Source: an uncultured Draconibacterium sp. (GTDB taxonomy: Bacteria > Bacteroidota > Bacteroidia > Bacteroidales > Prolixibacteraceae). Taken from it: a DNA stretch of 64,000 bases. Every line of letters starts with the position of its first letter. Position 1 is the first letter of the stretch. Where the stretch lies: assembly GCF_963675585.1 (NCBI RefSeq), contig NZ_OY776414.1:1963001-2027000 (forward strand), in the 5' to 3' direction. The notes below the pieces were generated by a model that was not told where the DNA came from, searched no databases, and saw only the letters and a program-made list of their open reading frames with translations. Of the stretch, positions 3,191 through 26,863 are shown piece after piece. The position numbers were made by a program, and so were the translations under genes.

Positions 3191-3195
3191 GCGGC

Positions 3196-6367: not shown

Positions 6368-8140
6368 ATGAAAAAATTATTCTTAATATCCTTTGGAATC
6401 ATTTTTATTAGTATGCTACTAAGTGCTCAGCAATTGGCATTTCCGGGGGCTGAAGGATACGGAAAGTATGTATCCGGAGGAAGAGGTAATGGAGAAACGG
6501 GAAGAGTTGCAATTGTTACCAATCTTGAAGATGATGCAGAAAATCCTCCTATTGGTAGTTTTCGATGGGCTACCAAACAAGGAATAGATACGATAGTACA
6601 CCCAATATATGGAAACATAAAAATACAACGTCCGTTAACCATTGTTTTTCAGGTTGGTGGAGTTATATCTCTGAAAGATGATATACGTGTAAAACGCGAT
6701 AATCTAACGATTGCAGGTCAAACGGCTCCAGGCGACGGAATTTGTTTTAGGGGTGCAACTTTAAATTTTGGAGGATCGAATAACCTTATCGTACGATACA
6801 TTCGTTCCAGGCCGGGCGACGAACTTGGATTGGAAACATCAGCATTTCGTGTGGAAAACGGTAGTAATTTTATTATCGATCATTGTTCGTTTAGCTGGGC
6901 AATTGAAGAAACAACTCATTTTTCGAGCAGCCCGAATTTTACAGTGCAATGGTGTATTATCAGCGAATCTTTGTACAATTCATTTCACAAAAAAGGCGAA
7001 AGAGGTTATGGGTCGCAACATGGAGGTATGTATGCTTCCTACCATCACAATTTAATGGCGCATCACAATTCAAGAACACCTCGTATAAACGGTTCAAATG
7101 AAAACGATGTAGAAGCGCTTGTGGATTACCGAAACAATGTAAATTACAATTTTGGAAGAAGTGGTTCTTTCTATGGAGGCGAATGGATGAAAACCAATGG
7201 ACTGGGTTTTGCCCATACCAATGTCGTTAACAACTATTTTATTCCGGGCCCGGGTAATTACGGAACACTCTATTTTGTTAGTCCGGGAACAGGCGACAAT
7301 GGTTTTGCCGGTTGGTATATAAATGGAAATGTAATGGTAGGTGAAGCGGCTCTAAGTTCTGACAACTGGCTGGGCGTGAACTATACCTACAAAGACAGCA
7401 TCCGCTTTGACACAGAATTTGTACATAGCGATGGTGTGATTGAGGATTACGAAAATTATACGCAAAGTGCAGAAGACGCCTACCATTCCTTGGTGGATAA
7501 TGTTGGAGCTACTCTACCTAAAAGAGATGCACATGATACCCGTATAATTAAAGAAATGACAGGTGAAATTGATATCGTAAGATATGCGTTTACCGACACC
7601 AGTGGTCAGGTATCACCGATAAAAGGTATCGAAAGTGGTATTATTGACACTCAGAACAATATTGTTTCGCCCGAAGATCGCGAAGCAGGTATTAGTGCAT
7701 GGGATGTATATAAAACCATTCCGCAAAACGAAGCACCGCTGGATTTCGACAAAGATGGAATTCCCAATGCCTGGGAAACGGAGCATGGACTTAATGCAGA
7801 TGATAAAAGCGATGGCATATTGATTGCTGAAAACGGGTACAGTAACCTGGAGAATTACCTGAATTCAATGGATATTAACACATCTGCTTCTGAAATACCG
7901 GTAATGGAAAATTTTCAATTCTATCCAAATCCTTTTTCAAACACCTTATTCTTCGAAAACGTAATTCCGGTAAAAACAATTGAGATATATACTATTTACG
8001 GCAATTGTATCTACTCCGAATCCAACAATTTAGGCATAACAGAAATTGATGGTTCAATGCTTGTACCGGGATTATATCTGGTTAAAGCAACTGATTTCTT
8101 GAATCAAGTTCATATTGGTAAAGTTTTAAAACAACAATAA
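6368..8140 (+). CDS. Pectate lyase, PL1 family, with type IX secretion sorting domain
   Basis: This 590-residue secreted lyase has a signal peptide ending near SAQ, then QLAFPGAEGYGKYVSGGRG, the usual start of Bacteroidota PL1 enzymes. The parallel beta-helix includes NLTIAGQTAPGDGICFRG, IIDHCSFSWAIEE and YHHNLMAHHNSRTPRING; the last carries the catalytic-arginine region. Residues around 455-500 hold an acidic DFDKDGIPNAWE motif shared with three paralogues in the window. Only this copy has an extra C-terminal domain (about 515-590, with FQFYPNPFSN and a GLYLVK turn) that fits a type A T9SS sorting signal, so it should reach the cell surface or medium. It cleaves polygalacturonate by beta-elimination. 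A DUF1593 gene follows 13 bases later. Confidence 0.93.
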   Translation: MKKLFLISFGIIFISMLLSAQQLAFPGAEGYGKYVSGGRGNGETGRVAIVTNLEDDAENPPIGSFRWATKQGIDTIVHPIYGNIKIQRPLTIVFQVGGVISLKDDIRVKRDNLTIAGQTAPGDGICFRGATLNFGGSNNLIVRYIRSRPGDELGLETSAFRVENGSNFIIDHCSFSWAIEETTHFSSSPNFTVQWCIISESLYNSFHKKGERGYGSQHGGMYASYHHNLMAHHNSRTPRINGSNENDVEALVDYRNNVNYNFGRSGSFYGGEWMKTNGLGFAHTNVVNNYFIPGPGNYGTLYFVSPGTGDNGFAGWYINGNVMVGEAALSSDNWLGVNYTYKDSIRFDTEFVHSDGVIEDYENYTQSAEDAYHSLVDNVGATLPKRDAHDTRIIKEMTGEIDIVRYAFTDTSGQVSPIKGIESGIIDTQNNIVSPEDREAGISAWDVYKTIPQNEAPLDFDKDGIPNAWETEHGLNADDKSDGILIAENGYSNLENYLNSMDINTSASEIPVMENFQFYPNPFSNTLFFENVIPVKTIEIYTIYGNCIYSESNNLGITEIDGSMLVPGLYLVKATDFLNQVHIGKVLKQQ

Positions 8141-8153
8141 AAGAGGCAAAATT

Positions 8154-9632
8154 ATGAAAATGAAAACCTTGGTAATTCTTCTGTTTTCAACGGTTGTTGC
8201 GTGTTCAAACCAGAATACTCAATCCGAAGATGTGAGCAGCACAGCTGTTAAACCGCGTGTAATTGTTACAAGTGATGGAGAAATTGACGATGAATGTTCA
8301 ATGGTTCGATTTTTATTGTACACCAACGAATGGGATGTGGAAGGCATCATCACTTCCAGTTCGCAGTACCACTGGCACGGCCACCGCTGGGCTGGCGACG
8401 ACTGGCTCGATCCCTATCTTGATGCATATGCAGATGTATATCCAAATTTGATAAAACACAGCAACGACTACCCAACTCCCGACTATTTAAAATCAATCGC
8501 CTTAATTGGGAATGTTGAAGATGAAGGAGAAATGGATTCCATTACTCCCGGTTCGCAGCACATTGTAAAAGTCCTTTTAGACGAATCAAAAAACGCTCCA
8601 ATCTGGCTTCAGGCGTGGGGAGGTACAAACACCATTGCCCGGGCACTTAAAACCATTGAGCAAGAGCATCCTGAGAAAATGAAACAAGTGGCCGGCAAAC
8701 TACGCTTTTTCTTTATCTGGGAACAGGATTCTACCTACCAGGAATACATTCGCCCCAATTGGGGAAAATTCAATATCCCTACAATTATCAGCGATCAGTT
8801 TTGGTCAATTGCTTATCAATGGGATAAAATAATGCAAAATGATAAAATAGATTACTTCACAGCCGGTTGGATGAAACCAAACATTCTGGAAGACCATGGT
8901 CCTCTGTGTTCATTGTACCAGGCATATGAAGGAAGTGAAGACAAAGAAGGATGGAAAGCCGGAGGTCCTAATCAGCAAGGCAATTTCAGATCGGAAGGTG
9001 ATTCACCTGCGTTTATTCATACAATTCCAACCGGGCTTCGCAACTTAGAATCTCCGGATTACGGAGGTTGGGGAGGCCGATACATTAACGTTCGTGAAAA
9101 TACATGGTTAGATCCTGTGCCGGAAACCAATTACACTTACCCCGCAGGAAGATGGTATACAGCAACTGCCTGGGGGCGAAATTACATGAAGAATACTTAT
9201 CCTGACAAGCAGGATTTAATGAATGCCTATTTTAATCCGATTACGCGTTGGACAGATGTTTTACAGAACGATTTTGCGGCACGTGCTGACTGGTGTGTAA
9301 AAACCTTTGAAGAAGCCAATCATGCTCCGGTGGTTAAATTGGACAACGCGCTAGATATAATTTCAGAACCCGGCAGTATAATTCAGATGAGTGCCAAAGG
9401 TACAACTGATCCTGATGGCGATGAACTTACTTTTTTATGGTGGCAGTATGAAGAAGCGGATACCTATCAGGGAAATGTAGTTATTGAAAATTCAAGCGCA
9501 CGTGAAGCTTTATTTACAGTTCCCGCAGATGCAAAAAAAGGAGAAACCATTCATATTGTTTGTGAAGTAAAGGACGACGGTTCACCTCAGCTTACACGCT
9601 ACCAACGTGTAATTATCACAATTAAGCTGTAA
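8154..9632 (+). CDS. Secreted DUF1593/Sde182-type nucleoside hydrolase-like lipoprotein (copy 1)
   Basis: This 492-residue lipoprotein (Cys17 after STVVA) has an N-terminal domain resembling nucleoside hydrolases. VIVTSDGEIDDECSM (around residues 38-52) mirrors the calcium-binding Asp cluster of that fold. LQAWGGTNTIARAL, IWEQDSTYQEYIRPNW and GGWGGRYINVRENTWLDPVP are family motifs. The C-terminal part has an Ig-like domain with TDPDGDELTFLWWQY. DUF1593 is annotated from the cellulose-binding Sde182 protein of Saccharophagus; no reaction is firmly known to me. Nucleoside hydrolases open furanosyl bonds, and this copy follows a PL1 gene by 13 bases, so a furanosidase acting on pectin side chains is a reasonable guess. 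Confidence 0.85.
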   Translation: MKMKTLVILLFSTVVACSNQNTQSEDVSSTAVKPRVIVTSDGEIDDECSMVRFLLYTNEWDVEGIITSSSQYHWHGHRWAGDDWLDPYLDAYADVYPNLIKHSNDYPTPDYLKSIALIGNVEDEGEMDSITPGSQHIVKVLLDESKNAPIWLQAWGGTNTIARALKTIEQEHPEKMKQVAGKLRFFFIWEQDSTYQEYIRPNWGKFNIPTIISDQFWSIAYQWDKIMQNDKIDYFTAGWMKPNILEDHGPLCSLYQAYEGSEDKEGWKAGGPNQQGNFRSEGDSPAFIHTIPTGLRNLESPDYGGWGGRYINVRENTWLDPVPETNYTYPAGRWYTATAWGRNYMKNTYPDKQDLMNAYFNPITRWTDVLQNDFAARADWCVKTFEEANHAPVVKLDNALDIISEPGSIIQMSAKGTTDPDGDELTFLWWQYEEADTYQGNVVIENSSAREALFTVPADAKKGETIHIVCEVKDDGSPQLTRYQRVIITIKL

Positions 9633-9710
9633 ATTTAAAATTGAATTAAACATTATTATCATCCTTTTATTTGACATTGTTTTAATGTGGGACAGATCTT
9701 AATAACAGCA

Positions 9711-9729
9711 GAAAACCAGTATGGTTTTC
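9711..9729. other. Short hairpin after DUF1593 copy 1
   Basis: GAAAACCA and TGGTTTTC form a perfect eight-base stem with a three-base loop, 78 bases after the stop and before the GH140 promoter repeats. It may end the importer-lyase transcript; there is no U-run, so this is tentative. Confidence 0.35.
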
Positions 9730-9774
9730 CGATGTTGGAAAGAAGAACAGAAAATCGATAATTGTGAAAACTTA

Positions 9775-9796
9775 TTCCAGATTTTTTACAGATTTA
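9775..9796 (+). promoter_or_regulatory. Putative response-regulator site before the GH140 gene (two 11-bp units)
   Basis: TTCCAGATTTT (9775-9785) and TTACAGATTTA (9786-9796) are consecutive 11-base units like those before the PepSY and third PL1 promoters. The last unit starts 44 bases before the ATG at 9830, exactly as at 14760 relative to 14804. Only two units are recognisable here, so this is the weakest of the three sites. Confidence 0.45.
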
Positions 9797-9829
9797 TGTA
9801 GTTTATTGTACCCAAAATTACAAGAAATT

Positions 9830-11296
9830 ATGAAACTCAGTGTCCTGATTATTTTATGCGTACTGTTTATTACCCCAAATAAATCAATGGCGCAAACTCC
9901 ATGGCAAGAACATGGAAAACTTGAAATTTCAGCCAACCAACATTACATTCAACACGAAGATGGCAGCCCTTTTTTATGGATTGGCGACACCGGCTGGGGA
10001 ATGTTTCAACAGCTAACCCGTGAAGAAGTCGATCTGTATTTGGATAGTCGGCAGGAACTTGGATTTACCGTAATTCAGGCAGTAGCCCACTGGTCTCCGC
10101 ATGGAGGAGGAATGGACAGGAGTCCCGACAACGCAGCCAATGCATACGGACATCGACCGTTTACCGGCGAAGAAAAATCACCCAACACCTCTGAACCATT
10201 ATTGGTTGAAGGAGGCGATCTCAATTCGCCCAACGATTACTGGGATCATGCAGATTATGTTGTTGAAGCTGTAAAAAAACGAAATATGTATTTGGCACTG
10301 CTACCTTGCTGGGCTTCTCAATTGGTTACCGGCACTGGCGAGTATACAGCAGAAGAAGCAAAGTTATATGGCACATTTTTAGGAAAACGATATGGCAACG
10401 AACCAAATATTATTTGGGTATTAGGCGGCGATACCAAAGCGCAATTTGATGCCTACGATAAAAATCAGAAGTACAGTAAGTACGATTACCGCCCCATTTA
10501 CCGAGCAATGGCAGAAGGAATTGTACAAGGTGTTACCGGAGAAACTCCGGCATGGAATGAAGTGCATCCTGCCTGGGATGAAGTATTTTTTACTTACCAT
10601 CCAAACGGTGATTCTCCTTATGGTTCGTCGCAATGGTTTCACGAGGATGTTTGGCAAGATGCGAATGGTGTGGAAGTGTGGAAAGAAGTAAATGATGTGT
10701 ACAGAACCATGCTCAATGATTATCAGTTAAAGAATCCGGTAAAACCAAGTTTATTTTTAGAAGGTTCTTATGAATATGGCTCCTATCGACATGATTGTGG
10801 ATGGGTAACACCGGTGCGCGTACGCAGGCAGTTTTATCAGACATTTTTTGCCGGTGGTGCCGGGCATACCTACGGTGCTGCTCCTATTTGGTCGATGAGA
10901 GGAAACGAAGGCGATTACAATTGTGGCTATACATGGCAGCAGGCACTTGATTTTCCGGGTGCAGCACAAGTATCGCTTACAGGCAAACAATTTTTAAGCG
11001 ATCACAACTGGTACGAGTGGATTCCCAATGGAAATGTTATTTCAGACCTTGGAGAAAACGAAAGTTTGAAAACTGCTGTTACCACCGAATCAAACAATAT
11101 GGCTTTGGTCTATTTTTCAAATAACTCAAGCTGCAGGGTAAAAAACATTTTAAACAAAACGGCCAATGCCTACTGGTTTTATCCACAAACCGGCGAAAAG
11201 CAAAAAATATCAACATTTTCGGTAAATGAATCAAGAGATATGGTGCCTCCTTCTAAATGGGAAGATGCTGTTTTGGTACTTCAAACTCAAGAATAA
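9830..11296 (+). CDS. GH140-like glycosidase (DUF4038 family), candidate apiosidase
   Basis: Reading from the ATG at 9830 gives 488 residues with a clean signal peptide (KLSVLIILCVLF to SMAQ). The in-frame GTG at 9764 would add 22 residues and overlap a putative regulator site. The TIM-barrel domain begins LEISANQHYIQHEDGSPFLW and GDTGWGMFQQLTREEV, typical of DUF4038. Likely catalytic acids are Asp201 in NIIWVLGGDTKA and Glu311 in SLFLEGSYEYGS, matching the Asp/Glu pair described for the RG-II apiosidase BT1012 (GH140). The C-terminal part resembles the collagen-binding-like domain usually attached. GH140 removes D-apiose from pectin. Family membership is strong; apiose specificity is inferred from the one characterised member and from neighbouring pentose import genes. 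Confidence 0.85.
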   Translation: MKLSVLIILCVLFITPNKSMAQTPWQEHGKLEISANQHYIQHEDGSPFLWIGDTGWGMFQQLTREEVDLYLDSRQELGFTVIQAVAHWSPHGGGMDRSPDNAANAYGHRPFTGEEKSPNTSEPLLVEGGDLNSPNDYWDHADYVVEAVKKRNMYLALLPCWASQLVTGTGEYTAEEAKLYGTFLGKRYGNEPNIIWVLGGDTKAQFDAYDKNQKYSKYDYRPIYRAMAEGIVQGVTGETPAWNEVHPAWDEVFFTYHPNGDSPYGSSQWFHEDVWQDANGVEVWKEVNDVYRTMLNDYQLKNPVKPSLFLEGSYEYGSYRHDCGWVTPVRVRRQFYQTFFAGGAGHTYGAAPIWSMRGNEGDYNCGYTWQQALDFPGAAQVSLTGKQFLSDHNWYEWIPNGNVISDLGENESLKTAVTTESNNMALVYFSNNSSCRVKNILNKTANAYWFYPQTGEKQKISTFSVNESRDMVPPSKWEDAVLVLQTQE

Positions 11297-11330
11297 TAAA
11301 CTAGTCCGATAAACATATAAAAGAAAACAA

Positions 11331-12704
11331 ATGAATACTTTAAAATCAATTCTAATTGTACTGTTTCTACTACCATTCAGCCTGATATCCAATGCACAGG
11401 AAAAAACGGCAAACAGAATTCCCGAATATAAAATTCCATATGAATTGCCATCGACTGAAAATGTTATGGAAGTTTTAAACCGAATTCGTACGTACTACGA
11501 ATCCACAAGTCCTCAAATTATTATTGATTCAAAAACGGGAGAAAAAATAAACGATTTTAACACCTTTAATCCCAATGCAGTTCCCTCACCTGGCTTTTCG
11601 GGTGAATGGTCGTATACTCATGGAGTTGTTCTTTCCGCTTTCGATTACATTACAAAAGTTACCGGCGACAAAACTTTCGTTAACAACAACACAAAGTTTT
11701 ATAATTATGTCATCGAAAACCTCCCCTATTTTCAAAACAATTCGGATAAAATAAAAAGTTCAAAAATTGGAAACTGGGGAAGAATTATAGAATTTGAAGC
11801 TTTGGATGATTGTGGTTCGATTACTGCCGCAATGATTAAAACGTATTTAATAACAAAGGACGACAAGTACCTCGAAATCATTAATCGCACCGCAGAACAC
11901 ATCTCTAATCATCAGTTTCGTTTGGAAGATGGTACACTGGCGCGCAACCGCCCGCAATACAAGTCGGTTTGGGCCGACGATATGTACATGAGTGTGCCGT
12001 TTTTAATAAATATGGGTGTGCTTAGCAACAACAACGCCTATTTTGATGATGCCGTAAAACAAGTACTTCAAATGGCCGACCGTTTGTACATTCCCGAAAA
12101 GGAGTTGTTCGATCACGGTTGGAATGTAACTTCGGGCGATTATGATCCACGCTTTTACTGGGGACGTGCCAATGGCTGGGTTTTAATGTCGATGGCAGAA
12201 GTATTGAGTATTTTACCTGAAGATTACCAGGGTCGCGATAAAATACTTCATCTCTATCGTTCAATGGTTCGTAGTTTGGCCAACCTGCAGGATGGCGACG
12301 GATTTTGGCACAACCTGCTCGACAAAAACGATACCTACACCGAAACATCGTGCACTGCCATGTTTACCTTTGCCATTGCAAAAGGGATTAACGAAGGTTG
12401 GATTAGCCATGTGTATGGGCCGGTGGCACTAACCGGCTGGAATGCCCTGCAAACGCGTGTTCTTGAAAATGGTGCAGTAGATGGAACCTGCGAGGGAACA
12501 ACTTTCGCCCACGATAATACGTATTACTACCACCGTGGAAAAAGCATTTATGCAACCCACGGATATGGGCCGGTTCTGTATGCCGGCGCAGAAATGATTC
12601 GCTTGCTTCAAAACGACAAAATTGAAATAGTCAATACCAATTTTGGTTCTATAAACAGTACTTTTCATTTTCTCTTAAAAAGCGAATGGCCTGAAAAGAA
12701 GTAA
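11331..12704 (+). CDS. GH105 unsaturated glycuronyl hydrolase (YteR/RhiN-like)
   Basis: This 457-residue exported protein (signal ending SNAQ) has an alpha/alpha six-barrel fold. GEWSYTHGVVLSAF, KSVWADDMYMSVPFL (Asp216/Asp217), FYWGRANGWVLMSMAEVL and DNTYYYHRGKS are typical of GH105. These enzymes hydrate and release the 4,5-unsaturated uronic acid left at the non-reducing end by pectate or rhamnogalacturonan lyases, so it acts after the PL1/PL10 enzymes here. It lies 34 bases after the GH140 gene and 24 bases before the response regulator, apparently in the same transcript. GH88 is a related alternative but the motifs fit GH105 better. Confidence 0.88.
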   Translation: MNTLKSILIVLFLLPFSLISNAQEKTANRIPEYKIPYELPSTENVMEVLNRIRTYYESTSPQIIIDSKTGEKINDFNTFNPNAVPSPGFSGEWSYTHGVVLSAFDYITKVTGDKTFVNNNTKFYNYVIENLPYFQNNSDKIKSSKIGNWGRIIEFEALDDCGSITAAMIKTYLITKDDKYLEIINRTAEHISNHQFRLEDGTLARNRPQYKSVWADDMYMSVPFLINMGVLSNNNAYFDDAVKQVLQMADRLYIPEKELFDHGWNVTSGDYDPRFYWGRANGWVLMSMAEVLSILPEDYQGRDKILHLYRSMVRSLANLQDGDGFWHNLLDKNDTYTETSCTAMFTFAIAKGINEGWISHVYGPVALTGWNALQTRVLENGAVDGTCEGTTFAHDNTYYYHRGKSIYATHGYGPVLYAGAEMIRLLQNDKIEIVNTNFGSINSTFHFLLKSEWPEKK

Positions 12705-12728
12705 TTGCTTACTATAAAATTCTGTAAC

Positions 12729-13406
12729 ATGAAAATTCTTGTAATAGAAGACGAACCGGAAATGAGGGAATTGATCAAACAATTTCTTAAAGATGAAAAT
12801 TACCTTGTTGAAGAAGCAACTGATTTTTATTCGGGTGTCGATAAAATAGTAGCTTACGATTACGATTGTATTTTGCTGGACATTATGCTTCCGGGAGGAA
12901 ATGGTCTGGATCTGTTACAAGAATTAAAAAACATGAACAAAGCCGACAGTGTTATCATTATTTCGGCAAAAGATTCACTCGACGATAAAATAAAAGGCTT
13001 AAACCTGGGTGCTGATGATTATCTTACAAAACCATTTCATATTGCAGAACTAAACGCTAGAATAAAATCGGTTATCCGACGTAAGAAATCAGATGGCAGG
13101 CGATTGCTGGAAATAGAAAATGTATCGATAAATATTGACGAAAGATTGGTTACAATCAATAACAAACCCGTGAATTTAAATCGTAAGGAGTTTGATATTC
13201 TTGTTTTTTTCGCGATGAACAAATTAAGGGTTGTGAGTAAATCGGCCATAGCCGAAAATATTTGGGGAGATTATATTGATCAATCAAACGATTTCGATTT
13301 TATTTATTCGCAAATTAAAAACCTACGTAAAAAGCTCCGCAGTCACGAGGCTGAAATAGACATTAACGCTGTTTATGGAATGGGATACAGATTAATTATT
13401 AAATGA
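12729..13406 (+). CDS. OmpR-family response regulator
   Basis: This 225-residue cytoplasmic regulator has a receiver domain (1-115) with acidic pair EDE near residue 8, phospho-acceptor Asp51 in LLDIMLPG, and switch Lys in DDYLTKPF. A winged-helix Trans_reg_C domain follows (about 130-224) with LNRKEFDILVFF and INAVYGMGYRLI. The ATG at 12729 places the first strand correctly; an upstream TTG at 12705 adds only eight unlikely residues. The kinase gene overlaps its stop by four bases. OmpR-family dimers bind 10-11 bp direct repeats. The TTCC repeats at 11-bp spacing before 9830, 14804 and 22650 are therefore its likely targets. Confidence 0.95.
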   Translation: MKILVIEDEPEMRELIKQFLKDENYLVEEATDFYSGVDKIVAYDYDCILLDIMLPGGNGLDLLQELKNMNKADSVIIISAKDSLDDKIKGLNLGADDYLTKPFHIAELNARIKSVIRRKKSDGRRLLEIENVSINIDERLVTINNKPVNLNRKEFDILVFFAMNKLRVVSKSAIAENIWGDYIDQSNDFDFIYSQIKNLRKKLRSHEAEIDINAVYGMGYRLIIK

Positions 13407-14677
13407 GACTAATAAATCATACACTGCTGTTTCTTTTGTTTATATTGTTTATAACAGTTGGCTTATGGTCTGTTCTTTTTTATTCTCAACTTCTAACACA
13501 AGTTAAAACCACCATCGATGAAGGTTTGAGCAATTACAAAATTGTTATTATCGACAAATTAAAAGATGATAGTCTTATTGTTGAGCAGAATGTATTTTTG
13601 GATAATAACTACATTGTTAAGGGCGTAAGCGAAGACTTCGCATTGCGAGTAAGAGATTCTTATAAAGACACTTTAATTTTTTCTACACTTAAAAATACGA
13701 GCTACGAGGTACGCCTACTTACTACTGCCTTTGTTGCTGCCGACGGAAATTATTACGAAATGAAGGTAATTTCAAACGAAGTGGATAAAGGCAGATTAAT
13801 GGGTAAGATATTACAGTCGCTACTGTGGTTATTTTTCTTTTTATTTATTGGTACATTGTTGGTAAATAATTTGGTGCTAAAAAAAACATGGAAACCTTTT
13901 TATCGAGTATTGGAATATCTGAATGATTTCAGACTTGATAAAAAAACATTTCGTGAGTTGCCCAAAACACACATTAAGGAATTTTCAATGCTAAACGATT
14001 CCATTCAAAACCTGTTAAATTTAAATGTTGATATTTTTAACAGTCAAAAACAATTTATTGAAAATGCTTCGCACGAGTTACAAACGCCGCTGGCTATAGG
14101 AATTAACAAACTTGAATTGCTTGCCGACGAGGACAAATTATCGCCGGACCAGATCAAACAAATTGGAGATATAATTCGTGTATTTCAACGACTATCGGGT
14201 TTAAATAAGTCGCTGCTCTTACTTTCAAAAATCGAAAACAAACAATTTGTATCTGAAGAACCAATTAGCTTTGACGCTATTTTCAGCAGAATTACACACG
14301 ATTTTACAGACTTTACAGAATACAAAAAAATTAAAATAAGCTATCAGAAAGAAGATAACTGGTTATTCAGGATGAATAAAGATCTTGCAGAAATGATGGT
14401 ATTAAACCTGGTTAAAAATGCCATTGTTCATAACCAACCAGGCGGAGAACTCATTATTCGTTTGGGAGTCTCGTATTTTACCATTGAAAACACAAGCGAT
14501 AAACCAGAAATTCCTTCTGATAAATTATTTAAACGCTTTAATAAAGATGCGGATAACAAGGGTTCCACCGGCCTTGGTTTGGCCATTGTAAAAGCCATTG
14601 CCGATGCATCTGGCTTACATCTCTCCTATTCCTATCACAAAAGACATATTTTTAAAGTCATTCAAAAATCGAACTAA
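13403..14677 (+). CDS. Sensor histidine kinase
   Basis: This 424-residue membrane kinase has one transmembrane segment near residues 5-25 and a second near 135-155, enclosing a small periplasmic sensor of about 110 residues. The HisKA box is ENASHELQTPLAIGIN with His224. The N box is LNLVKNAIVHN and the G box GSTGLGLAIVKAIA. It phosphorylates the response regulator whose stop codon overlaps its start (ATGA). The next gene encodes a PepSY-like periplasmic protein that may supply or modulate the signal. No HAMP domain is obvious. Confidence 0.94.
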   Translation: MRLINHTLLFLLFILFITVGLWSVLFYSQLLTQVKTTIDEGLSNYKIVIIDKLKDDSLIVEQNVFLDNNYIVKGVSEDFALRVRDSYKDTLIFSTLKNTSYEVRLLTTAFVAADGNYYEMKVISNEVDKGRLMGKILQSLLWLFFFLFIGTLLVNNLVLKKTWKPFYRVLEYLNDFRLDKKTFRELPKTHIKEFSMLNDSIQNLLNLNVDIFNSQKQFIENASHELQTPLAIGINKLELLADEDKLSPDQIKQIGDIIRVFQRLSGLNKSLLLLSKIENKQFVSEEPISFDAIFSRITHDFTDFTEYKKIKISYQKEDNWLFRMNKDLAEMMVLNLVKNAIVHNQPGGELIIRLGVSYFTIENTSDKPEIPSDKLFKRFNKDADNKGSTGLGLAIVKAIADASGLHLSYSYHKRHIFKVIQKSN

Positions 14678-14726
14678 CAGCTTTCATTTCCGAATAGGAA
14701 TGTTCAAAACATTTCGCGATAAAGTA

Positions 14727-14770
14727 TTCCGGTTTCCTTCCAGATTTATTCCAACTTGTTTCCAGATTCA
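14727..14770 (+). promoter_or_regulatory. Four TTCC direct repeats at 11-bp spacing before the PepSY-like gene
   Basis: TTCC occurs at 14727, 14738, 14749 and 14760, exactly 11 bases apart. Units 2-4 read TTCCAGATTTA, TTCCAACTTGT and TTCCAGATTCA. They are followed at once by TATCTTTT (14771-14778), a seven-of-eight match to the Bacteroidota -7 box TAnnTTTG, with no clear -33 box. This is the expected layout of an activator-dependent promoter bound by an OmpR-type regulator, and such a regulator is encoded just upstream. The last unit starts 44 bases before the ATG. Confidence 0.7.
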
Positions 14771-14803
14771 TATCTTTTATTTGCATATAAATTAAGCTTC
14801 ATT

Positions 14804-16749: not shown

Positions 16750-16775
16750 TACAAACAATAGTAAATCTCAATATC

Positions 16776-19480: not shown

Positions 19481-19487
19481 AAAAGCT

Positions 19488-20963
19488 ATGAATAACATAG
19501 GATGTAATTCAAATTCTATAATAAGAATTTATCTATTATCAGGATTGATGTCTTTACTATTTTTCTCTCCTTCAAAATCTCAACAACTAGCATTTCCGGG
19601 TGCCGAAGGATTTGGCGCGTATGCAACAGGCGGGAGAGGCGGACAAGTTATTGAAGTAACCAACCTTTTAGACAATGAGGAAGGAACAATTAACGGCAGT
19701 CTGCGTTGGGCATTTAAACAATGTTCTTACGAACCTACAACAATTGTTTTCAGAGTTTCCGGTGTAATCAATCTGGTTGATGAACTAAGAGGAAAATTTA
19801 CAAAAGGTGTAACTATTGCGGGACAAACAGCTCCGGGCGACGGGATTTGCATTCGTGGTAATAAAGTAAATCTTGGTGGAAGCTCTAATCTGATTTTACG
19901 TCATCTTCGTTTTCGCAATGGCCTTCGTGACGATGAATCTTTCATTAAAGGCGGATCTATAGGTATCGAAAATGCCAACAATGTTATTATCGACCATTGT
20001 ACCTTTGGCTGGTCGGGCGAAGAAAATATGACAATGTACGACAACGACTCTACCACCGTTCAGTGGTGTATTGTTCACGAAGGACTATACGCCTCAGGGC
20101 ATGCCAAAGGTGCACGAAGTTATGGCTGTCAGTGGGGAGGGCAAAATGCAAGCTACCACCACAACCTACTTGCCCATTATTACAGTCGCACTCCGCGATT
20201 TAACGGTAGTAAACACCACGATAAAAATGTTGTATATGAGTATATAAACAATGTTAATTATAACTGGGGGAAAGCCAATTCAGCCTACGGTGCCTACATC
20301 GAAATTGCAGACGGAACTTATCAGTGTAAAATGATTAACAATTACTATAAGCCAGGTCCGGCGCGACCCGGTAATTTGGCATCTTTCTTTGCCCAATCCT
20401 TACATCATTCCATGCAGGGCGACTCCTTAATCGCTCAATGGTATATGAATGGGAATATTATGGAAGGTTCAGCCAATATAGCACTAAATGAAAATAACTC
20501 ACTCGGTTTAAATGCTGAAAAATATGAACATGTAGGTATTGGCACATCAGCTTTAATCGCCAAAAAACCGTTCAATATTCCTCATGCCCTTTCTATAGAA
20601 TCGGCGGTTGAAGCATACAAAAATGTATTGGCAGGTGCCGGTGCATTTCCGCGAGACATTGTCGATAAACGTATTGTTAACGAAGTTCGCACAGGTACTG
20701 CATCGGGTGCAGGCAGTACATATAAAAAGGAGCAGGAAGTTGCAGATGCTTCTAAAATCTGTGGAATTATCGACTCTCAGAATGATATTGGTGGATGGCC
20801 TGTTTTGAAAAGCTTACCTGCCCCGCTTGACACCGATCATGACGGGATGCCAGACGTATGGGAAAAGAAAAACGGACTGAATCCAAGCAATGCAAATGAT
20901 AGAAATAGTAATGGCGAAGATGGGTACACCATGTTGGAAAAATATTTGAATAGTATAAAATAA
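19488..20963 (+). CDS. Pectate lyase, PL1 family (copy 3)
   Basis: This 491-residue secreted lyase has a longer N-region and a signal ending PSKSQ, then QLAFPGAEGFGAYATGGRGGQVIEV. Motifs: GVTIAGQTAPGDGICIRG, VIIDHCTFGWSGEENMT, QNASYHHNLLAHYYSRTPRFN. It resembles copy 1 in its catalytic half (SRTPRFN rather than SRNPRMA) but its last 90 residues are almost those of copy 2, so it appears to be a mosaic. It lacks a T9SS tail. The ATG at 19488 gives the signal peptide; the frame remains open back to 19404 inside the previous gene, which is not used. Confidence 0.92.
   Translation: MNNIGCNSNSIIRIYLLSGLMSLLFFSPSKSQQLAFPGAEGFGAYATGGRGGQVIEVTNLLDNEEGTINGSLRWAFKQCSYEPTTIVFRVSGVINLVDELRGKFTKGVTIAGQTAPGDGICIRGNKVNLGGSSNLILRHLRFRNGLRDDESFIKGGSIGIENANNVIIDHCTFGWSGEENMTMYDNDSTTVQWCIVHEGLYASGHAKGARSYGCQWGGQNASYHHNLLAHYYSRTPRFNGSKHHDKNVVYEYINNVNYNWGKANSAYGAYIEIADGTYQCKMINNYYKPGPARPGNLASFFAQSLHHSMQGDSLIAQWYMNGNIMEGSANIALNENNSLGLNAEKYEHVGIGTSALIAKKPFNIPHALSIESAVEAYKNVLAGAGAFPRDIVDKRIVNEVRTGTASGAGSTYKKEQEVADASKICGIIDSQNDIGGWPVLKSLPAPLDTDHDGMPDVWEKKNGLNPSNANDRNSNGEDGYTMLEKYLNSIK
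20711..20886 (+). repeat. Near-identical PL1 3' segment, copy B
   Basis: This segment matches 17906-18081 in 173 of 176 bases, including silent positions. It covers the acidic DTDHDGMPDVWE motif. Sequence on both sides diverges sharply, which marks it as a transferred block. Confidence 0.9.
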
Positions 20964-21017
20964 TTCCAGATGACTCAAGAATATCATGCTAAAAAAACAA
21001 ATTAAATCCTTAAAGTG

Positions 21018-22502
21018 ATGAAATTTAAAAATAGAACAATCAAAACAAAACTTCATTTTTTGTTTGTAATCCTGATTACAATGTCATTTTCCTGTTTCAG
21101 TCAAGAAAACAAATCCAGCAATAACGCTAAACCGCGGGTGATTGTAACATCAGACGGTGAAATCGACGACCAAGCCTCAATGATTCGATTTCTGCTGTAT
21201 ACAAATGAATGCGATGTAGAAGCCATTGTGTTGTCATCTTCGCAATATCATTCTGAAAGTCACGGTCATTGGGCAGGAAATGATTGGGTAACCCCCGACC
21301 TGGATGCCTACGAGCAGGTTTATCCAAATCTATTAAAACATGATCCTAACTATCCAAGCCCAGAATATCTTCGTTCACGCACTGCCGTGGGTAATGTGAA
21401 AACAGAAGGAGAAATGGAAGAGGTAACGGCAGGATCAGAATTGATTGCACAAATTTTACTTGATACGTCAGATGATCGCCCCGTTTGGCTACAGGCTTGG
21501 GGAGGGACAAACACCATCGCACGCGCGTTGAAAACAATCGAAGAAAATCATCCGGAACGGATGCAAGAAGTTGCAGCAAAGTGCCGTTTCTACTTTATCT
21601 GGGAGCAGGATGCAACTTATCAGGAATACATTAGGCCACATTGGAGCAAGTACAATATTCCCACAATTATTTCAGACCAGTTTGAGGCAGTTGCTTACCG
21701 TTGGAAACAGATTCAACCGAAAGAAATGCAAGTTTATTACGAAGCGGCATGGATGAAAGAAAATATTTTGGAAAACCACGGTCCTTTGTGTTCGATCTAC
21801 CAAGCTCATAAAAAAACATCGGAGAGAAACAACTTCGATTACTACGAAGGAGATTTCCTATCCGAGGGCGATTCACCTTCATTTTTTCACAACATTGCAA
21901 CCGGCTTACGCAACATGGAGTCACCAGATTGGGGTGGCTGGGGTGGCCGTTTCGTATGGGTGCGTGAGAATACCTGGCTCGATCCGGTTCCCGTTGAAGG
22001 ATATACTTATCCGGAAGGACGCTGGTACACCGAAAATGCTTGGGGCAGAGAGGGTACGCGCCAGCACATGACCACCTTTACCCATCCCGAATACCGTGAA
22101 TATTTCAAGCCGATGTGGCGTTGGACACCTGCACTTCAAAACGACTTTGCAGCGCGAGCAGACTGGTGTGTTAAATCATTTGAAGATACAAACCACCCGC
22201 CAATTGTAAAACTCAATCATGCCATCGACCTAAAAGCCAAACCGGGTGAGACCATAAAACTTAGTGCAAAAGGCACAAGCGATCCTGATGGTGATATTTT
22301 GAATATTCGCTGGTGGCAATATACCGAAGCTGATACCTATCAGGGAACCATTGAAATGAAGAACTCTTCAAGAAGCGATGCTTCATTCAAGATACCCAAG
22401 GATGCTGGTGAGAACGAAACCATTCATATCATTTGTGAGGTTACAGATTCGGGATCACCACAATTAACAAGGTATCAACGAGTAATAATAAACATTGAAT
22501 AG
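21018..22502 (+). CDS. Secreted DUF1593/Sde182-type nucleoside hydrolase-like protein (copy 2)
   Basis: This 494-residue protein has an N-terminal hydrophobic segment ending SFSC, so it is a lipoprotein or a cleaved export protein. It is close to copy 1: VIVTSDGEIDDQASMIRFLLYTN, SSSQYHSESHGHWAGNDW, LQAWGGTNTIARALKTIEE, WGGWGGRFVWVRENTWLDPVP and the Ig-like TSDPDGDILNIRWWQYTEADTYQG. The Asp cluster fits a calcium-binding nucleoside-hydrolase fold. It follows a PL1 gene by 54 bases, the second PL1-DUF1593 pair in the region. The ATG at 21018 is preferred over GTG at 21015. Confidence 0.85.
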   Translation: MKFKNRTIKTKLHFLFVILITMSFSCFSQENKSSNNAKPRVIVTSDGEIDDQASMIRFLLYTNECDVEAIVLSSSQYHSESHGHWAGNDWVTPDLDAYEQVYPNLLKHDPNYPSPEYLRSRTAVGNVKTEGEMEEVTAGSELIAQILLDTSDDRPVWLQAWGGTNTIARALKTIEENHPERMQEVAAKCRFYFIWEQDATYQEYIRPHWSKYNIPTIISDQFEAVAYRWKQIQPKEMQVYYEAAWMKENILENHGPLCSIYQAHKKTSERNNFDYYEGDFLSEGDSPSFFHNIATGLRNMESPDWGGWGGRFVWVRENTWLDPVPVEGYTYPEGRWYTENAWGREGTRQHMTTFTHPEYREYFKPMWRWTPALQNDFAARADWCVKSFEDTNHPPIVKLNHAIDLKAKPGETIKLSAKGTSDPDGDILNIRWWQYTEADTYQGTIEMKNSSRSDASFKIPKDAGENETIHIICEVTDSGSPQLTRYQRVIINIE

Positions 22503-22649: not shown

Positions 22650-24074
22650 ATGAAAAAATTTAGTATTACTGTACTATCATTCTTGCTGTTTTTCTCAGTT
22701 GCATGGTCACAACAATTAGCATTTCCTACAGCCGAAGGTTATGGTAAATATACGGTTGGTGGACGTGGTGGAGACGTTTACGAAGTTACCAATCTGCACG
22801 ATTCAGGCGAAGGCAGCCTGCGGGCAGCAGTAGAAGCCCAAGGTCCAAGAACAGTTGTATTCCGTGTTTCCGGAACCATTGATCTGAAAAGCGACCTGCG
22901 AATCAGTAACCCATACATAACTATTGCCGGACAAACTGCTCCCGGGGATGGGATTTGTATTAAGAGGTATCCGCTAATGATTAACGCCGATGAAGTGATT
23001 ATTCGTTACATAAGAGTAAGATTTGGTGATGAATCGCTTCAGGATGCCGATGCTGTTTCAAGCAGGTATGTAAAGAACCTAATTTTAGATCATGTTTCTG
23101 CAAGTTGGAGTGTCGACGAAGTTCTATCTGTTTATCATGGTGAATACACCACCGTACAATGGTGCCTAATTGCCGAAAGCATGTTCAATTCAAACCACCC
23201 AACAAAAGGGAACCATGGTTTTGGAGGTATTTGGGGATCAAACTATAGTACTTATCATCATAATCTAATAGCCAATAACTCCAATCGAAATATCCGTTTC
23301 GCCTCAGGATGTGGTAATACCGACTATCGTAATAATGTAATTTACAATTGGGGATTTGAATCAACATACGGTGCTGAATCACAACAAAAAGGAAATGATA
23401 AATTCAATTTCTCCAATGTGAATATGGTGGCAAATTACTATAAACCGGGACCAGCAACTCTACCAGGTCGGTTAACCAGTCAAATTGCTGCCCCTTGGTC
23501 GCGAAATGGAGATAGTGATTATGGTAAATGGTATATTGCAGATAATGTAATGCTCGGTAGCCCCGAAGTAACCAATGATAATTGGAAGGGCGTTGCTCCT
23601 GCCTTAACAGCTATTAAAGGTGTACAAGAACATAACCCAACAAATTATGATGCAATTTCCGGTTTGAAATTGCATAAACCCTGGCCAGCCATGGCAATCA
23701 AGCAGCAAACGGCAGAAGATGCTTATAAGTCGGTTCTTGAACAAGCAGGAGCCAGTTTGCCAAAAAGAGATGTAGTTGACCTTCGTATTATTGAAGAGGC
23801 ACGTACCGGATTAGCAAATTTTGAAGGCTGCTACAAAGATTTTTATGAGGTTGCAGATAAATCTAAGAAGTGTGGAATTATTGATTCGCAAAATGATGTG
23901 GGAGGATGGCCTGTTTTGAAAAGCTTACCTGCCCCGCTTGACACCGATCATGACGGGATGCCAGACGTATGGGAAAAGAAAAACGGACTGAATCCAAATG
24001 ATGCTTCCGACCGAAATAAGATAGCCGAAAATGGGTACACCATGCTCGAGAATTATTTAAATAGTATTGACTAA
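22650..24074 (+). CDS. Pectate lyase, PL1 family (copy 4)
   Basis: This 474-residue secreted lyase has a signal ending VAWSQ and QLAFPTAEGYGKYTVGGRGGDVYEV. Motifs: PYITIAGQTAPGDGICIKRY, LILDHVSASWSVDEVLSVYHGEY, GIWGSNYSTYHHNLIANNSNRNIRFASG. The usual PR pair of the catalytic strand is IR here (NRNIRFASG), but the arginine remains. It is most like copy 2 and ends in the shared DTDHDGMPDVWEKKNGLN tail without a T9SS domain. It heads the last transcript of the pectin half, followed by two DUF1593 genes 16 and 7 bases apart. Confidence 0.93.
   Translation: MKKFSITVLSFLLFFSVAWSQQLAFPTAEGYGKYTVGGRGGDVYEVTNLHDSGEGSLRAAVEAQGPRTVVFRVSGTIDLKSDLRISNPYITIAGQTAPGDGICIKRYPLMINADEVIIRYIRVRFGDESLQDADAVSSRYVKNLILDHVSASWSVDEVLSVYHGEYTTVQWCLIAESMFNSNHPTKGNHGFGGIWGSNYSTYHHNLIANNSNRNIRFASGCGNTDYRNNVIYNWGFESTYGAESQQKGNDKFNFSNVNMVANYYKPGPATLPGRLTSQIAAPWSRNGDSDYGKWYIADNVMLGSPEVTNDNWKGVAPALTAIKGVQEHNPTNYDAISGLKLHKPWPAMAIKQQTAEDAYKSVLEQAGASLPKRDVVDLRIIEEARTGLANFEGCYKDFYEVADKSKKCGIIDSQNDVGGWPVLKSLPAPLDTDHDGMPDVWEKKNGLNPNDASDRNKIAENGYTMLENYLNSID
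23904..24051 (+). repeat. Near-identical PL1 3' segment, copy C
   Basis: This matches 17988-18135 in 147 of 148 bases, including silent positions, and overlaps the part shared with copy B. It ends at the CTCGAG shared with copy A, a few codons before the stop. Confidence 0.9.
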
Positions 24075-24090
24075 AAAAATAGATTAATCC

Positions 24091-25530
24091 ATGCAAAACC
24101 AATTTATTTTCGAACCGAAGAGTGTAATTAAGAATATACTTTTTATCGTGCTTGCACTGGTATTTTCATCAGCTTCAGCCAGTGAAAAACCACGACTTTT
24201 TGTGCTCACCGATATCGGTGGTGACCCTGATGACCAAATGTCGATGGTTCGATTAATGACTTACGCCAACCATGTTGATATTGAGGGACTTGTTGCAACA
24301 CACGTGCAACGACAGGTAAATCCCGACCGTATATACAAAATAGTAGAGGCGTACGGAAAAGTACGCGATAACCTGGAACTTCACGAAACAGGTTTTCCTC
24401 AAGCAGAATACTTACAAGACTGTATCTCAAACGGAATACCTGTTGGAGGAATGGAGGGTGTTGGCGAGGGGAAAGACTCACCTGGATCAGCACTTTTAAT
24501 AGCAGCTGTCGACCGCGAGGATTCAAGACCACTTTGGGTAACTGTTTGGGGAGGGCCAAACGTTTTAGCTCAAGCTTTATATAAGGTCCGTACCACACGT
24601 TCGGCAGATGAGCTCGCTAAATTTGTTGCTAAACTTCGCGTTTATGCTATTTCCGACCAGGACGATAGTGGTCCCTGGATACGCGAAGAATTTCCGGAGC
24701 TATTTTACATCGTTACACCGGGAGCAAATGCAGGTGGTGGTTTTCACCATGCTACCTGGATTGCCATTGGTGGCGACAAATTTCATGGCCGTTTTGATGG
24801 CGCCGACTTTCAATTGGTAAGCAACGAATGGCTCGAACGCAATATCCGCAGTAAAGGTCCACTGGGCAAAATGTATCCCCACTGGGAATATATGATGGAG
24901 GGCGATACTCCTTCATTTCTTTATCTTGTAAATAATGGTTTGAATAATCCCGACCACCCTAATTGGGGAGGCTGGGGAGGCCGCTATGAGCTATATCAAC
25001 CAAAAACAGAAAAGTGGTTCTATCAGGCTGAAACGCGCCCAATATGGACCAATGTGCAGGATGAAGTTTTGGGCAACGATGGAGAATGGCACACGACCAA
25101 CCATGCAACAATATGGCGTTGGCGCGAAGCATATCAAAACGATTTTGCGGCACGAATGGACTGGACGATCCAACCTTACAACAAGGCCAATCATCCACCC
25201 ATTGTTAAACTCGACCACCCCGAGTATATTACAGCAAAACCGGGTGAACGTATAGATTTAAGCGCACGAGGCACCATTGATCCAGACGGCGACCCACTTT
25301 CATACGAATGGTTTTGTTACGAGGAAGCAGGTACACGCGGAATGTCAAACTCGCGCACAGGCGTAAAACACGAAATTGTTGGTTTCGACCAAGCGAAAGC
25401 CTGGCTTACTGTAAAAACCAGCCGGGTAATGCGTCCGGGAACTGGCACTATGCACATTATACTTGCTGTTACCGATCATGGCACTCCCCGATTAACCCGC
25501 TATAAAAGAATAATTATAAACGTTGAATAA
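24091..25530 (+). CDS. Secreted DUF1593/Sde182-type nucleoside hydrolase-like protein (copy 3)
   Basis: This 479-residue protein has a longer N-region and a signal ending SSASAS. Its Asp cluster VLTDIGGDPDDQMSMVRL (around 37-54) is closer to the nucleoside-hydrolase consensus than copies 1-2, which have GEIDD. Family motifs: VTVWGGPNVLAQAL, AISDQDDSGPWIREEFP, NPDHPNWGGWGGRYELY, and the Ig-like TIDPDGDPLSYEWFCYEEAG. It lies 16 bases after a PL1 gene and seven before another DUF1593 gene. The function is as uncertain as for copies 1 and 2; the divergence suggests a different substrate bond. Confidence 0.85.
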   Translation: MQNQFIFEPKSVIKNILFIVLALVFSSASASEKPRLFVLTDIGGDPDDQMSMVRLMTYANHVDIEGLVATHVQRQVNPDRIYKIVEAYGKVRDNLELHETGFPQAEYLQDCISNGIPVGGMEGVGEGKDSPGSALLIAAVDREDSRPLWVTVWGGPNVLAQALYKVRTTRSADELAKFVAKLRVYAISDQDDSGPWIREEFPELFYIVTPGANAGGGFHHATWIAIGGDKFHGRFDGADFQLVSNEWLERNIRSKGPLGKMYPHWEYMMEGDTPSFLYLVNNGLNNPDHPNWGGWGGRYELYQPKTEKWFYQAETRPIWTNVQDEVLGNDGEWHTTNHATIWRWREAYQNDFAARMDWTIQPYNKANHPPIVKLDHPEYITAKPGERIDLSARGTIDPDGDPLSYEWFCYEEAGTRGMSNSRTGVKHEIVGFDQAKAWLTVKTSRVMRPGTGTMHIILAVTDHGTPRLTRYKRIIINVE

Positions 25531-25537
25531 GAACATT

Positions 25538-26863
25538 ATGACACCATCTAAAAAATATTTTAGACTCTCTGTTTTTCTGCTGTTAACCTTCGTGGTACTA
25601 AGTTCCTGTGGCACAAAAAGCAGTAAAAATTCAAATACGCCAGACAAAGCAACACCAGAAGCTATGCGTGTACTTGTATCTTCCGATATTGGCGGGACCG
25701 ACCCCGATGATTTTCAATCGATGATCCACTTGTTTCTTTATGCGGATACGCTCGATATTGAAGGATTAATCTCATCGCCTTTCGGTTTCGGAGGTAAAAA
25801 GAACATACTTGACGTCATTGATCAATACGAAAAAGACTATCCCAATTTAGTGAGTTATTCCGATAAATATCCTACTGCCGATTCGCTTCGCAGCATTACC
25901 AAACAAGGAGCAACAGAAGTTGCAAACTATACAGGAGTTGGAAATTCAACAGAAGGCTCTGAATGGATTATTAAATGCGCCCGACGTGATGATCCCCGTC
26001 CTCTCAACCTACTGGTTTGGGGAGGTATTGAAGACCTGGCTCAGGCACTTCACGATGCACCCGATATTTTGCCAAAATTGCGTGTGTATTACATTGGTGG
26101 ACCGAACAAAAAATGGACGCCCGATGCGTATCAATACATCGCCGACAATCACCCCAATCTTTGGATAATTGAATCGAATGCCACTTACCGGGGATGGTTT
26201 ACCGGCGGAGACCAATCGGCAGAATGGAGCAATACCGGTTTTCCTGAAAAATACATCAGCGGGCAGGGAGCCATGGCCAATTTTTTTATGACACAACTGG
26301 ACGGCACCATTAAAATGGGCGACACTCCGTCGTTGGCCTGGTTGCTAAAAGGCGATGCAGATGATCCCTCAAAACCAGGCTGGGGCGGACAGTACGTTCG
26401 TGCCTGGGATCGCCCCTATTACCTGTATAGCAAAATGCCATCAGCTTCAGATAGTATTCAGGAATTCTCCATTCTTGAAATTGCCCTTTCTGTTGAAAAC
26501 GATTTACCACAGCTTCCGGAAGCCAAACTCCTTGTTGAAAATCAGGCGCTGGCCGGAACTTTTATGGAAGACGGTAGAGTTCGATTTCGTTTCTCTCCAA
26601 AATCGGATAAAATATTTCAGTTTAAGGTAGAAAGTAATGTTGCCGAATTAAATGGCAAATCGGGAGAAGTAACTGTATTTATTCCGCCTCCACACCTTGC
26701 TGAACAAGCATCGGAGAAGTTTCCGAACTGGTGGACCGATGATCCAAATCCTGAATACATGGAAGGAAAACACTTAGGAGCTAAAACGGTGAGTAAATGG
26801 AGAAAAGAGTATTTAACTGACTTTGCCCAACGCATTCAACGTTGTGCGAGTCCTGCTAACTAA
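25538..26863 (+). CDS. DUF1593-type nucleoside hydrolase-like lipoprotein (copy 4, divergent)
   Basis: This 441-residue lipoprotein has its lipobox at LSSC. The N-terminal domain keeps VLVSSDIGGTDPDDFQSM, LLVWGGIEDLAQALHDAP, YYIGGPNKKWTPDAYQYI and KPGWGGQYVRAWDRPYY. The C-terminal half lacks the TDPDGD Ig-like motif of the other three and instead shows an immunoglobulin-like FMEDGRVRFRFSPKS and an aromatic NWWTDDPNPEYMEGKHLG end. It is the last gene of the + strand block; a strong terminator follows 32 bases on. The ATG at 25538 is preferred to a TTG at 25523 inside the previous gene. Confidence 0.83.
   Translation: MTPSKKYFRLSVFLLLTFVVLSSCGTKSSKNSNTPDKATPEAMRVLVSSDIGGTDPDDFQSMIHLFLYADTLDIEGLISSPFGFGGKKNILDVIDQYEKDYPNLVSYSDKYPTADSLRSITKQGATEVANYTGVGNSTEGSEWIIKCARRDDPRPLNLLVWGGIEDLAQALHDAPDILPKLRVYYIGGPNKKWTPDAYQYIADNHPNLWIIESNATYRGWFTGGDQSAEWSNTGFPEKYISGQGAMANFFMTQLDGTIKMGDTPSLAWLLKGDADDPSKPGWGGQYVRAWDRPYYLYSKMPSASDSIQEFSILEIALSVENDLPQLPEAKLLVENQALAGTFMEDGRVRFRFSPKSDKIFQFKVESNVAELNGKSGEVTVFIPPPHLAEQASEKFPNWWTDDPNPEYMEGKHLGAKTVSKWRKEYLTDFAQRIQRCASPAN

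Follow-up and report, generated by a model that had tools for sequence, protein, structure and literature searches.

Nucleoside hydrolases (NHs; PF01156, such as CfNH, PDB 2MAS, and RihA, PDB 3G5I) hold a Ca2+ ion that reads the cis-2,3-diol of a furanose, a diol that apiofuranose has and L-arabinofuranose lacks. A structure from the family DUF1593 (Pfam PF07632, now named 'Sde182_NH-like', for nucleoside-hydrolase-like) is said to date from a 2011 paper. GH140 apiosidases (PF13204; PDB 8t9w and 5msy) belong to a different family, and the D-apiose cluster of E. coli SE15 encodes an FGGY kinase, AptA, AptB, a sugar-binding protein (SBP), a DUF2291 protein, an ATPase and a permease. For Sde_0182 (PDB 2YHG), a PF07632 member, the fold, Ca2+ and a furanose-binding hypothesis have already been published (PMC8910321). 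Here we compare with these systems a stretch of 64,000 nucleotides from an uncultured Draconibacterium (bases 1963001-2027000 of contig C4, genome of 6.03 Mb; hereafter the window), in which four DUF1593 genes stand among PL1 lyase genes, downstream of a D-apiose-type gene module.

An initial annotation had taken the repeated PL1-DUF1593 pairing as a sign that DUF1593 is a family of pectin-acting furanosidases. The kind of enzyme survives our analysis; what we observe is a tie across phyla of one DUF1593 clade, here called the DGEIDD clade after its Asp motif, to PL1 and to the D-apiose-type module. This tie appears to be new: the open-access literature searched (most subscription literature and CAZy lay outside the search) gave no link of PF07632/DUF1593 with apiose, PL1 or a catabolic module, no gene-context link of Sde_0182 to apiose and no substrate for PF07632. 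Since relatives in several phyla often adjoin PL1 and apiose-type genes, DUF1593 may strip apiose. We propose, giving the idea an even chance of being right, that DGEIDD-type DUF1593 proteins, with the adjacent DIGGDPDD and DIGGTDPDD copies, are secreted NH-fold hydrolases that remove beta-D-apiofuranosyl groups from galacturonan (apiogalacturonan or the apiosyl links of rhamnogalacturonan II, RG-II). The direct basis is gene order, homology, predicted fold, Asp conservation and cross-phylum co-localisation, from which we infer the sugar, its hydrolysis by DUF1593, what each residue does and how the enzymes share the work. The pectin part of the locus reads as follows.

6368-8140, plus strand: PL1 lyase, PelZ-like, with a type IX secretion system C-terminal sorting tail
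8154-9632, plus strand: DUF1593/PF07632 copy 1, DGEIDD clade, lipoprotein-like, with a PF21027 C-terminal domain
8274-8291, plus strand: codons of D41-G-E-I-D45-D46, the counterpart of NH Asp10/14/15
9764-11296, plus strand: GH140-type apiosidase-like gene (PF13204; closest solved structure 8t9w, 'Apiosidase')
11331-12704, plus strand: GH88/GH105 unsaturated uronyl hydrolase-like gene
15640-16749, plus strand: PL10-type pectate lyase (PF09492, TIGR02474)
16728-18158, plus strand: PL1 lyase without a DUF1593 follower
18239-19480, plus strand: 413-aa protein, no Pfam match; three similar loci carry homologues
19404-20963, plus strand: PL1 lyase
21015-22502, plus strand: DUF1593 copy 2, DGEIDD clade, with a PF21027 domain
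22650-24074, plus strand: PL1 lyase, closest solved structure 9buj (PfPL1)
24091-25530, plus strand: DUF1593 copy 3, DIGGDPDD, Sde0182-like, with a PF21027 domain
25523-26863, plus strand: DUF1593 copy 4, DIGGTDPDD clade, lipoprotein-like, without a PF21027 match

Three of the four PL1 genes are followed by a DUF1593 gene, as had been claimed, at 13 (8140 to 8154), 51 (20963 to 21015) and 16 bases (24074 to 24091); only the middle spacing departs from the initial annotation, whose value of 54 bases is obtained from an alternative ATG three bases past the GTG start. The second DUF1593 gene after the third pair, which brings the locus to four copies, is also confirmed: with its listed TTG start, copy 25523 overlaps 24091-25530 by 8 bases. 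Secretion of the copies, likewise claimed earlier, agrees with N-terminal export signals that we recognised by eye in all four, with lipobox-like VVAC in 8154 and LSSC in 25523 and type I-like signals in 21015 and 24091. A fifth DUF1593 gene lies upstream, its start 4.3 kb and its end 2.9 kb from the window edge, and the genome as a whole has 11 DUF1593 matches, two of them partial, and 10 PL1 matches. With random placement among an assumed ~5000 genes we estimate that about 0.02 direct PL1-DUF1593 pairs would arise, versus 3 observed; the pairing exceeds chance, and it also recurs in other phyla. All four PL1 genes match NCBIfam PelZ weakly, below its cut-off. A PDB comparison made for the PL1 at 22650-24074 gave 9buj (PfPL1, a PL1 subfamily 2 lyase; E 9e-56) as the nearest solved relative, and the passages of PMC11229556 that deal with PfPL1 report activity on apiogalacturonan and make no mention of DUF1593. 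The GH140-type, GH88/105-like and PL10-type genes, absent from the earlier account, share this run with the PL1-DUF1593 pairs.

All four window copies match PF07632 at 191-357 bits (Pfam cut-off 26.8), three of the four carry the PF21027 C-terminal domain, and none matched PF01156 (hmmscan, E<=0.001). The pattern DxGxxDD, said to be kept by all copies, occurs literally in 0/4; an NH-type Asp cluster is nonetheless present, as DGEIDD in 8154 and 21015, DIGGDPDD in 24091 and DIGGTDPDD in 25523, and is nearly universal in relatives. DGEIDD has the spacing of D10-P-G-H-D14-D15 in E. coli RihA, whereas the Asp loop of Sde_0182 (DMGADPDD) is two residues longer. The comparison of a predicted structure with NHs, proposed in the initial annotation, gave an NH fold in which counterparts of Asp10/14/15 and of the C-terminal Asp are kept; counterparts of NH Glu166/Asn168 could not be located in DUF1593. 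Residues were paired with those of NHs via alignment to 2YHG, a RihA alignment and a weak profile alignment. The Foldseek second-look lists cover Foldseek's own matches, which leaves room for families outside those lists. The leaving-group His that precedes the C-terminal Asp in NHs is Gly in 218/219 relatives, and G266 of 25523 aligns with RihA H240. Because they lack both a PF01156 match and this His, the window proteins are filed under PF07632 and not as nucleoside hydrolases, from which they also differ by their export signal and, in three of four, by the extra C-terminal domain.

D41, D45, D46 and D283 are conserved in 219, 219, 217 and 216 of the 219 relatives. One of the two peptide patterns by which the 78 loci described below were found spans the Asp motif, and A3 and A4 were chosen with a motif pattern, so that motif conservation in pattern-found loci is partly by construction; the fair set consists of 126 relatives in whose sequences neither locus-finding pattern occurs, and in which the four residues are kept in 126, 126, 124 and 123. 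This looks like a retained catalytic or Ca site, and it argues against the alternative that fares best, namely that DUF1593 is a non-catalytic protein that binds apiose or another furanose and holds pectin in place or captures sugar for the transporter. Loss of the NH His, the Pfam name 'cellulose-binding' and the PF21027 domain of three copies are in keeping with such a role, as is the relative Sde_0182, which is inactive on nucleosides and said to retain furanose binding (PMC8910321). The presence of at least three DUF1593 motif classes in 21/78 loci suits different linkages better, and we consider a mere binder unlikely.

Adjacency in other genomes was surveyed with an alignment built from two relatives and the two DGEIDD copies of the window, which served to scan a collection of 84,980 species genomes; loci were chosen by similarity and not by context. 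The 78 distinct loci obtained are the best among 473 confirmed relatives; 50 of them span at least 20 kb and 28 less, and all counts hold within the stretch covered. Neighbours were assigned to families by hidden Markov models that had been grown from seed sequences of the window and of E. coli and were not curated. PL1 was found within ~10 kb in 50/78 loci (open reading frames, ORFs, below 1300 aa; 51/78 without the length limit), as a direct same-strand neighbour in 34/78, and 34 of 42 such pairs are less than 60 bases apart. The module (at least 3 of its 8 genes) was found in 20/78 loci, GH140 in 15/78, GH105 in 13/78, PL10 in 10/78, GH43 in 6/78 and GH127 in 5/78. By phylum, PL1 was present in 31/47 loci of Bacteroidota, 7/9 of Verrucomicrobiota, 6/13 of Planctomycetota, 3/3 of Pseudomonadota, 1/1 each of Balneolota and Poribacteria, 1/3 unplaced and 0/1 of Acidobacteriota, so that the adjacency the initial annotation proposed to look for is found across several phyla, within the DGEIDD clade. 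The module loci belong to Bacteroidota (17), Planctomycetota (2) and Verrucomicrobiota (1). Two or more DUF1593 ORFs occur in 55/78 loci (a split gene counts as two), and 17/78 hold exactly the DGExDD, DIGGTDPDD and DIxxxPDD classes found in the window.

Among 91 unlabelled neighbours (at most two genes away, same strand, 250-1099 aa) there were 12 GH28 matches, 11 to rhamnogalacturonase-like beta-helices (possibly the same proteins), esterases and 2 pectinesterases. Such company, together with the fact that association within a locus cannot separate the enzymes of one polymer, would also suit DUF1593 acting on another pectin group, such as an ester or pyranoside, with the apiose module nearby through a shared apiose-bearing pectin. 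We hold this improbable, given that the NH fold binds furanosides and that in three module loci, L114 (Draconibacterium aestuarii), L128 and L129 (Sunxiuqinia indica), the labelled secreted enzymes nearby are limited to PL1, DUF1593 and GH105 (GH105 not in L129), with the unlabelled ORFs partly typed and GH140-family genes elsewhere in these genomes. As these three loci hold little else that is labelled besides the module, simple apiogalacturonan suits the apiosyl hydrolase reading better than RG-II.

Genome-level tests covered the genomes of 50 of the 78 loci, 20 of them chosen for the module. The DUF2291 family, which is rare and marks the module, is present in 34/50, in 16/30 of those not chosen for the module and, among the Bacteroidota not so chosen, in 9/17 versus 3/295 phylum genomes without the window's own. 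A GH140-family (PF13204) gene is present in 46/50 (all but G557, G574, G581 and G587), by which 'DUF1593 replaces GH140' is ruled out as a general rule and DUF1593 is no simple stand-in for GH140; the two families are encoded side by side in shared loci and probably share a sugar. The window GH140 gene matches PF13204 at about 248-249.5 bits and 8t9w at 170 bits. In eight module genomes (G541, G542, G543, G547, G552, G555, G556 and G559) a PF13204 copy of 248-254 bits lies ~5-14 kb from DUF2291, and their other copies score higher or lower (window gene, 249.5 bits); judged by these scores, the copy near DUF2291 may represent a GH140 subgroup tied to the module.

DUF1593 outside the clade gave a different picture. 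PF07632 occurs in 27/296 phylum genomes and 26/247 order genomes, from which 58 regions around hits were surveyed, leaving out partial hits, low-scoring full-length hits (G338, G443, G333:C94) and the short contig G501:C12. The 45 control regions without a DGExDD copy have PL1 in none, GH140 in one and the module in two, and the whole family is not pectin-bound, contrary to the earlier suggestion. In control regions L054 and L100 the DUF1593 gene was not recovered by the ORF caller; the AptA label in L053, on a very long ORF, was judged false, and L053 is kept among the AptA-labelled control regions and not among the two with the module. DUF2291 is found in 4/296 phylum and 5/247 order genomes, together 8 different genomes, all of which have PF07632 (chance, without the window genome and if genomes are independent, 6e-4 for 3/3 and 8e-5 for 4/4); the module and PF07632 are co-located in three of the eight (G000, G158 and G333).

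In the window, the module is arranged as follows.

1-245, plus strand: FucI-type sugar isomerase (PF02952, 471 aa), C-terminal part; start 1171 bases upstream of the window
322-1206, plus strand: split transketolase subunit A, AptA-like, listed TTG start (46% to E. coli SE15 AptA; own-genome best AptA match; tree)
1203-2150, plus strand: split transketolase subunit B, AptB-like (39% to SE15 AptB)
2210-3190, plus strand: RbsB-type sugar-binding protein (SBP)
3196-3822, plus strand: DUF2291 lipoprotein (PF10054; family present in 4/296 phylum genomes)
3815-5347, plus strand: RbsA-type ABC ATPase
5358-6332, plus strand: RbsC-type permease, ending 35 bases short of the first PL1

On the same strand, the DNA upstream of the window encodes a DeoR regulator, another PF07632 protein, an FGGY kinase and the isomerase that crosses into the window, and intergenic gaps from DeoR to GH105 are -8 to 131 bases. 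A promoter and terminator scan of window positions 1-12000 was uninformative on operon borders (promoter-like 25 versus 27.9 in shuffles, terminator-like 16 versus 11.9). Judged by homology, the module matches the E. coli D-apiose cluster in everything but the isomerase step: the same seven components are present, with BLAST identities to SE15 of 39% for the kinase, 46% for AptA, 39% for AptB, 34% for the SBP and 42% each for the ATPase and permease (34-46% for the six aligned), while DUF2291 gave no BLAST match to its SE15 counterpart and is paired by Pfam family and annotation. It differs from the SE15 pathway by a FucI-type isomerase in place of ApsI or a pair of short-chain dehydrogenases/reductases (ApsI was not searched for) and by its position in a pectin locus with DUF1593. 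The available passages of PMC13001218 use the SE15 genes as queries and report that E. fergusonii and three cluster-bearing E. coli strains other than SE15 grow on D-apiose.

With AptA as query the window gene for subunit A ranks first in its own genome (252 bits; next 172 and 104), and across 118 phylum genomes the top three are genes of G033, G000 and G021 (265, 252 and 249 bits; next 231), which are genomes with DUF2291; orthology of subunit B to AptB rests on 39% identity and position. A first transketolase tree (58 rows, no outgroup) was ambiguous, placing AptA between the module rows and 26 others; it contained one artefact row, and a long row from R. tropici grouped with AptA. The rooted tree, with an outgroup added and L197, R. 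tropici and four duplicates (6 rows) as well as 11 thinned near-copies left out, holds 43 subunit-A proteins and places the 22 from modules in one clade (support 98/98) with the Listeria and Monoglobus proteins and the AptA proteins of E. coli and Klebsiella. Outside this clade fall 15 further split transketolases from the phylum, as does the second one of the window's genome; the outgroup and this second one are long branches, as the program warned. In Monoglobus a run of isomerase, subunits A and B and kinase is followed by a PF13204 protein (apiosidase-like, 60 bits), and a run in Listeria likewise ends in PF13204 (313 bits), which is an independent sign that such a run serves apiose. The Listeria monocytogenes run (L222, NZ_LR134403.1) holds in a row a LacI regulator, a FucI-type isomerase, a split transketolase, a glycerol-kinase-like gene, a beta-glucoside phosphotransferase system (PTS) and PF13204, and looks like a set for uptake and use of apiosyl glycosides.

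Several observations weigh against the apiosyl hydrolase reading. To our knowledge, no activity has been measured for any PF07632 member, and to the inactivity of Sde_0182 on nucleosides comes the weak direct profile alignment of the DGEIDD clade with Rih proteins at D41-D46 (probability 0.4%). The isomerase is of FucI type instead of ApsI, the one that the published D-apiose pathway (a 2018 paper) reportedly uses. Against AplK the kinase scores 368 bits and another FGGY kinase of the same genome 360 bits, and the kinase was set aside as proof of apiose because this does not discriminate. The SBP is closest to the Thermotoga ribose-binding protein 2fn8 (363 bits), with 223 bits to 5ibq, presumably the structure of an apiose-holding binding protein; it was set aside as well, and the transporter is therefore no proof of apiose. 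In the stretch covered, 58/78 DGEIDD loci are without the module and 18/78 without PL1, GH140 and module alike, and GH140-family genes are found in 46/50 genomes tested. The loci are not independent, a single genus or genome having contributed several of them; L127 and L158 coincide with the survey regions L050 and L066. Finally, 13 survey regions with a broader DGExDD copy show PL1 in 2 and the module in 0, so that the link to PL1 and the module belongs to the closer DGEIDD clade.

The SBP match also agrees with a module for D-ribose or ribosides, in which DUF1593 would free ribose as a secreted nucleosidase-like enzyme, as its NH fold might suggest, and PL1 would be a bystander; DUF2291 likewise occurs in two control genomes, those of T. 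maritima and B. subtilis. We judge this quite improbable, since a FucI-type isomerase, an FGGY kinase and a dedicated transketolase are not needed for ribose, PL1 is present in 50/78 loci, the NH leaving-group His is absent and Sde_0182 is inactive on nucleosides (PMC8910321).

The initial annotation had named apiose or arabinose as possible sugars. Removal of L-arabinofuranose from rhamnogalacturonan I or arabinan, which would suit the pectin setting and the GH43 and GH127 genes elsewhere in the window, is scarcely probable in view of the rarity of these two families in the 78 loci, the lack of arabinose genes among the module's named parts and the missing cis-2,3-diol, for which L-arabinofuranose does not fit the NH Ca2+ site as apiofuranose does; apiose is favoured by the D-apiose-type module nearby.

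In the mechanism that we envisage for apiosyl hydrolysis, Ca2+ held by D41, D46 and D283 would grip the cis-2,3-diol of apiofuranose, and D41 would activate a water that attacks C1. The nucleobase-protonating His of NHs would be replaced by Gly (G282), which fits an O-linked and not a base leaving group. At the level of the locus, PL1 and PL10 would cut bared or decorated backbone, DUF1593 and GH140 would take off apiosyl groups of different linkage and GH105 would clear unsaturated ends. Free apiose would be imported by the SBP-RbsA-RbsC transporter and pass through the FucI-type isomerase, the kinase and the AptAB transketolase. More broadly, we tentatively suggest, with somewhat less than even confidence, that the NH fold was recruited as secreted DUF1593 to give a new class of Ca-dependent polysaccharide O-furanosidases. 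In this view the divergent paralogues, often kept side by side in different phyla, would each be responsible for a different apiosyl linkage of apiogalacturonan, alongside GH140 and a variant D-apiose pathway with a FucI-type isomerase.

The link to PL1, GH140 and the module gives PF07632 a definite candidate substrate that is cheaply testable. If the proposal is true, apiosidases would have a second, unrelated fold, we would know of no earlier secreted polysaccharide glycosidase with an NH fold (CAZy lay outside the comparison), and tools for duckweed and seagrass pectin would follow; the FucI-type enzyme suggests another way of isomerising D-apiose.

Other genes deserve mention. Inside the pectin locus, 12705-15619 encodes a response regulator, a histidine kinase and a PepSY-like protein; homologues of the latter (45-49% identity) occur in the comparable loci L124 and L170 and in L135/L140, a pair that overlaps on a single contig. 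The 413-aa protein at 18239-19480 is exported-looking, lies between two PL1 genes and has homologues in L170 (61%), L124 (34%) and L115 (30%). A second GH140-type gene and two PL1 genes lie ~30-38 kb upstream of the window (G000:C4:1924690-1933275). On plasmid pSRC2 of Selenomonas ruminantium (L224), a secreted-looking PF07632 protein with DGEVDD is encoded between a beta-glucoside PTS and GH1, with an alpha-L-rhamnosidase also present, a setting that possibly concerns flavonoid apiosides. A separate locus of SusC/SusD type occupies 26960-63987 on the minus strand; it contains GH43, two GH127, DUF5695, CotH and DUF6055/DUF4859 proteins as well as a hybrid two-component regulator, and its target may be a glycan that bears arabinose.

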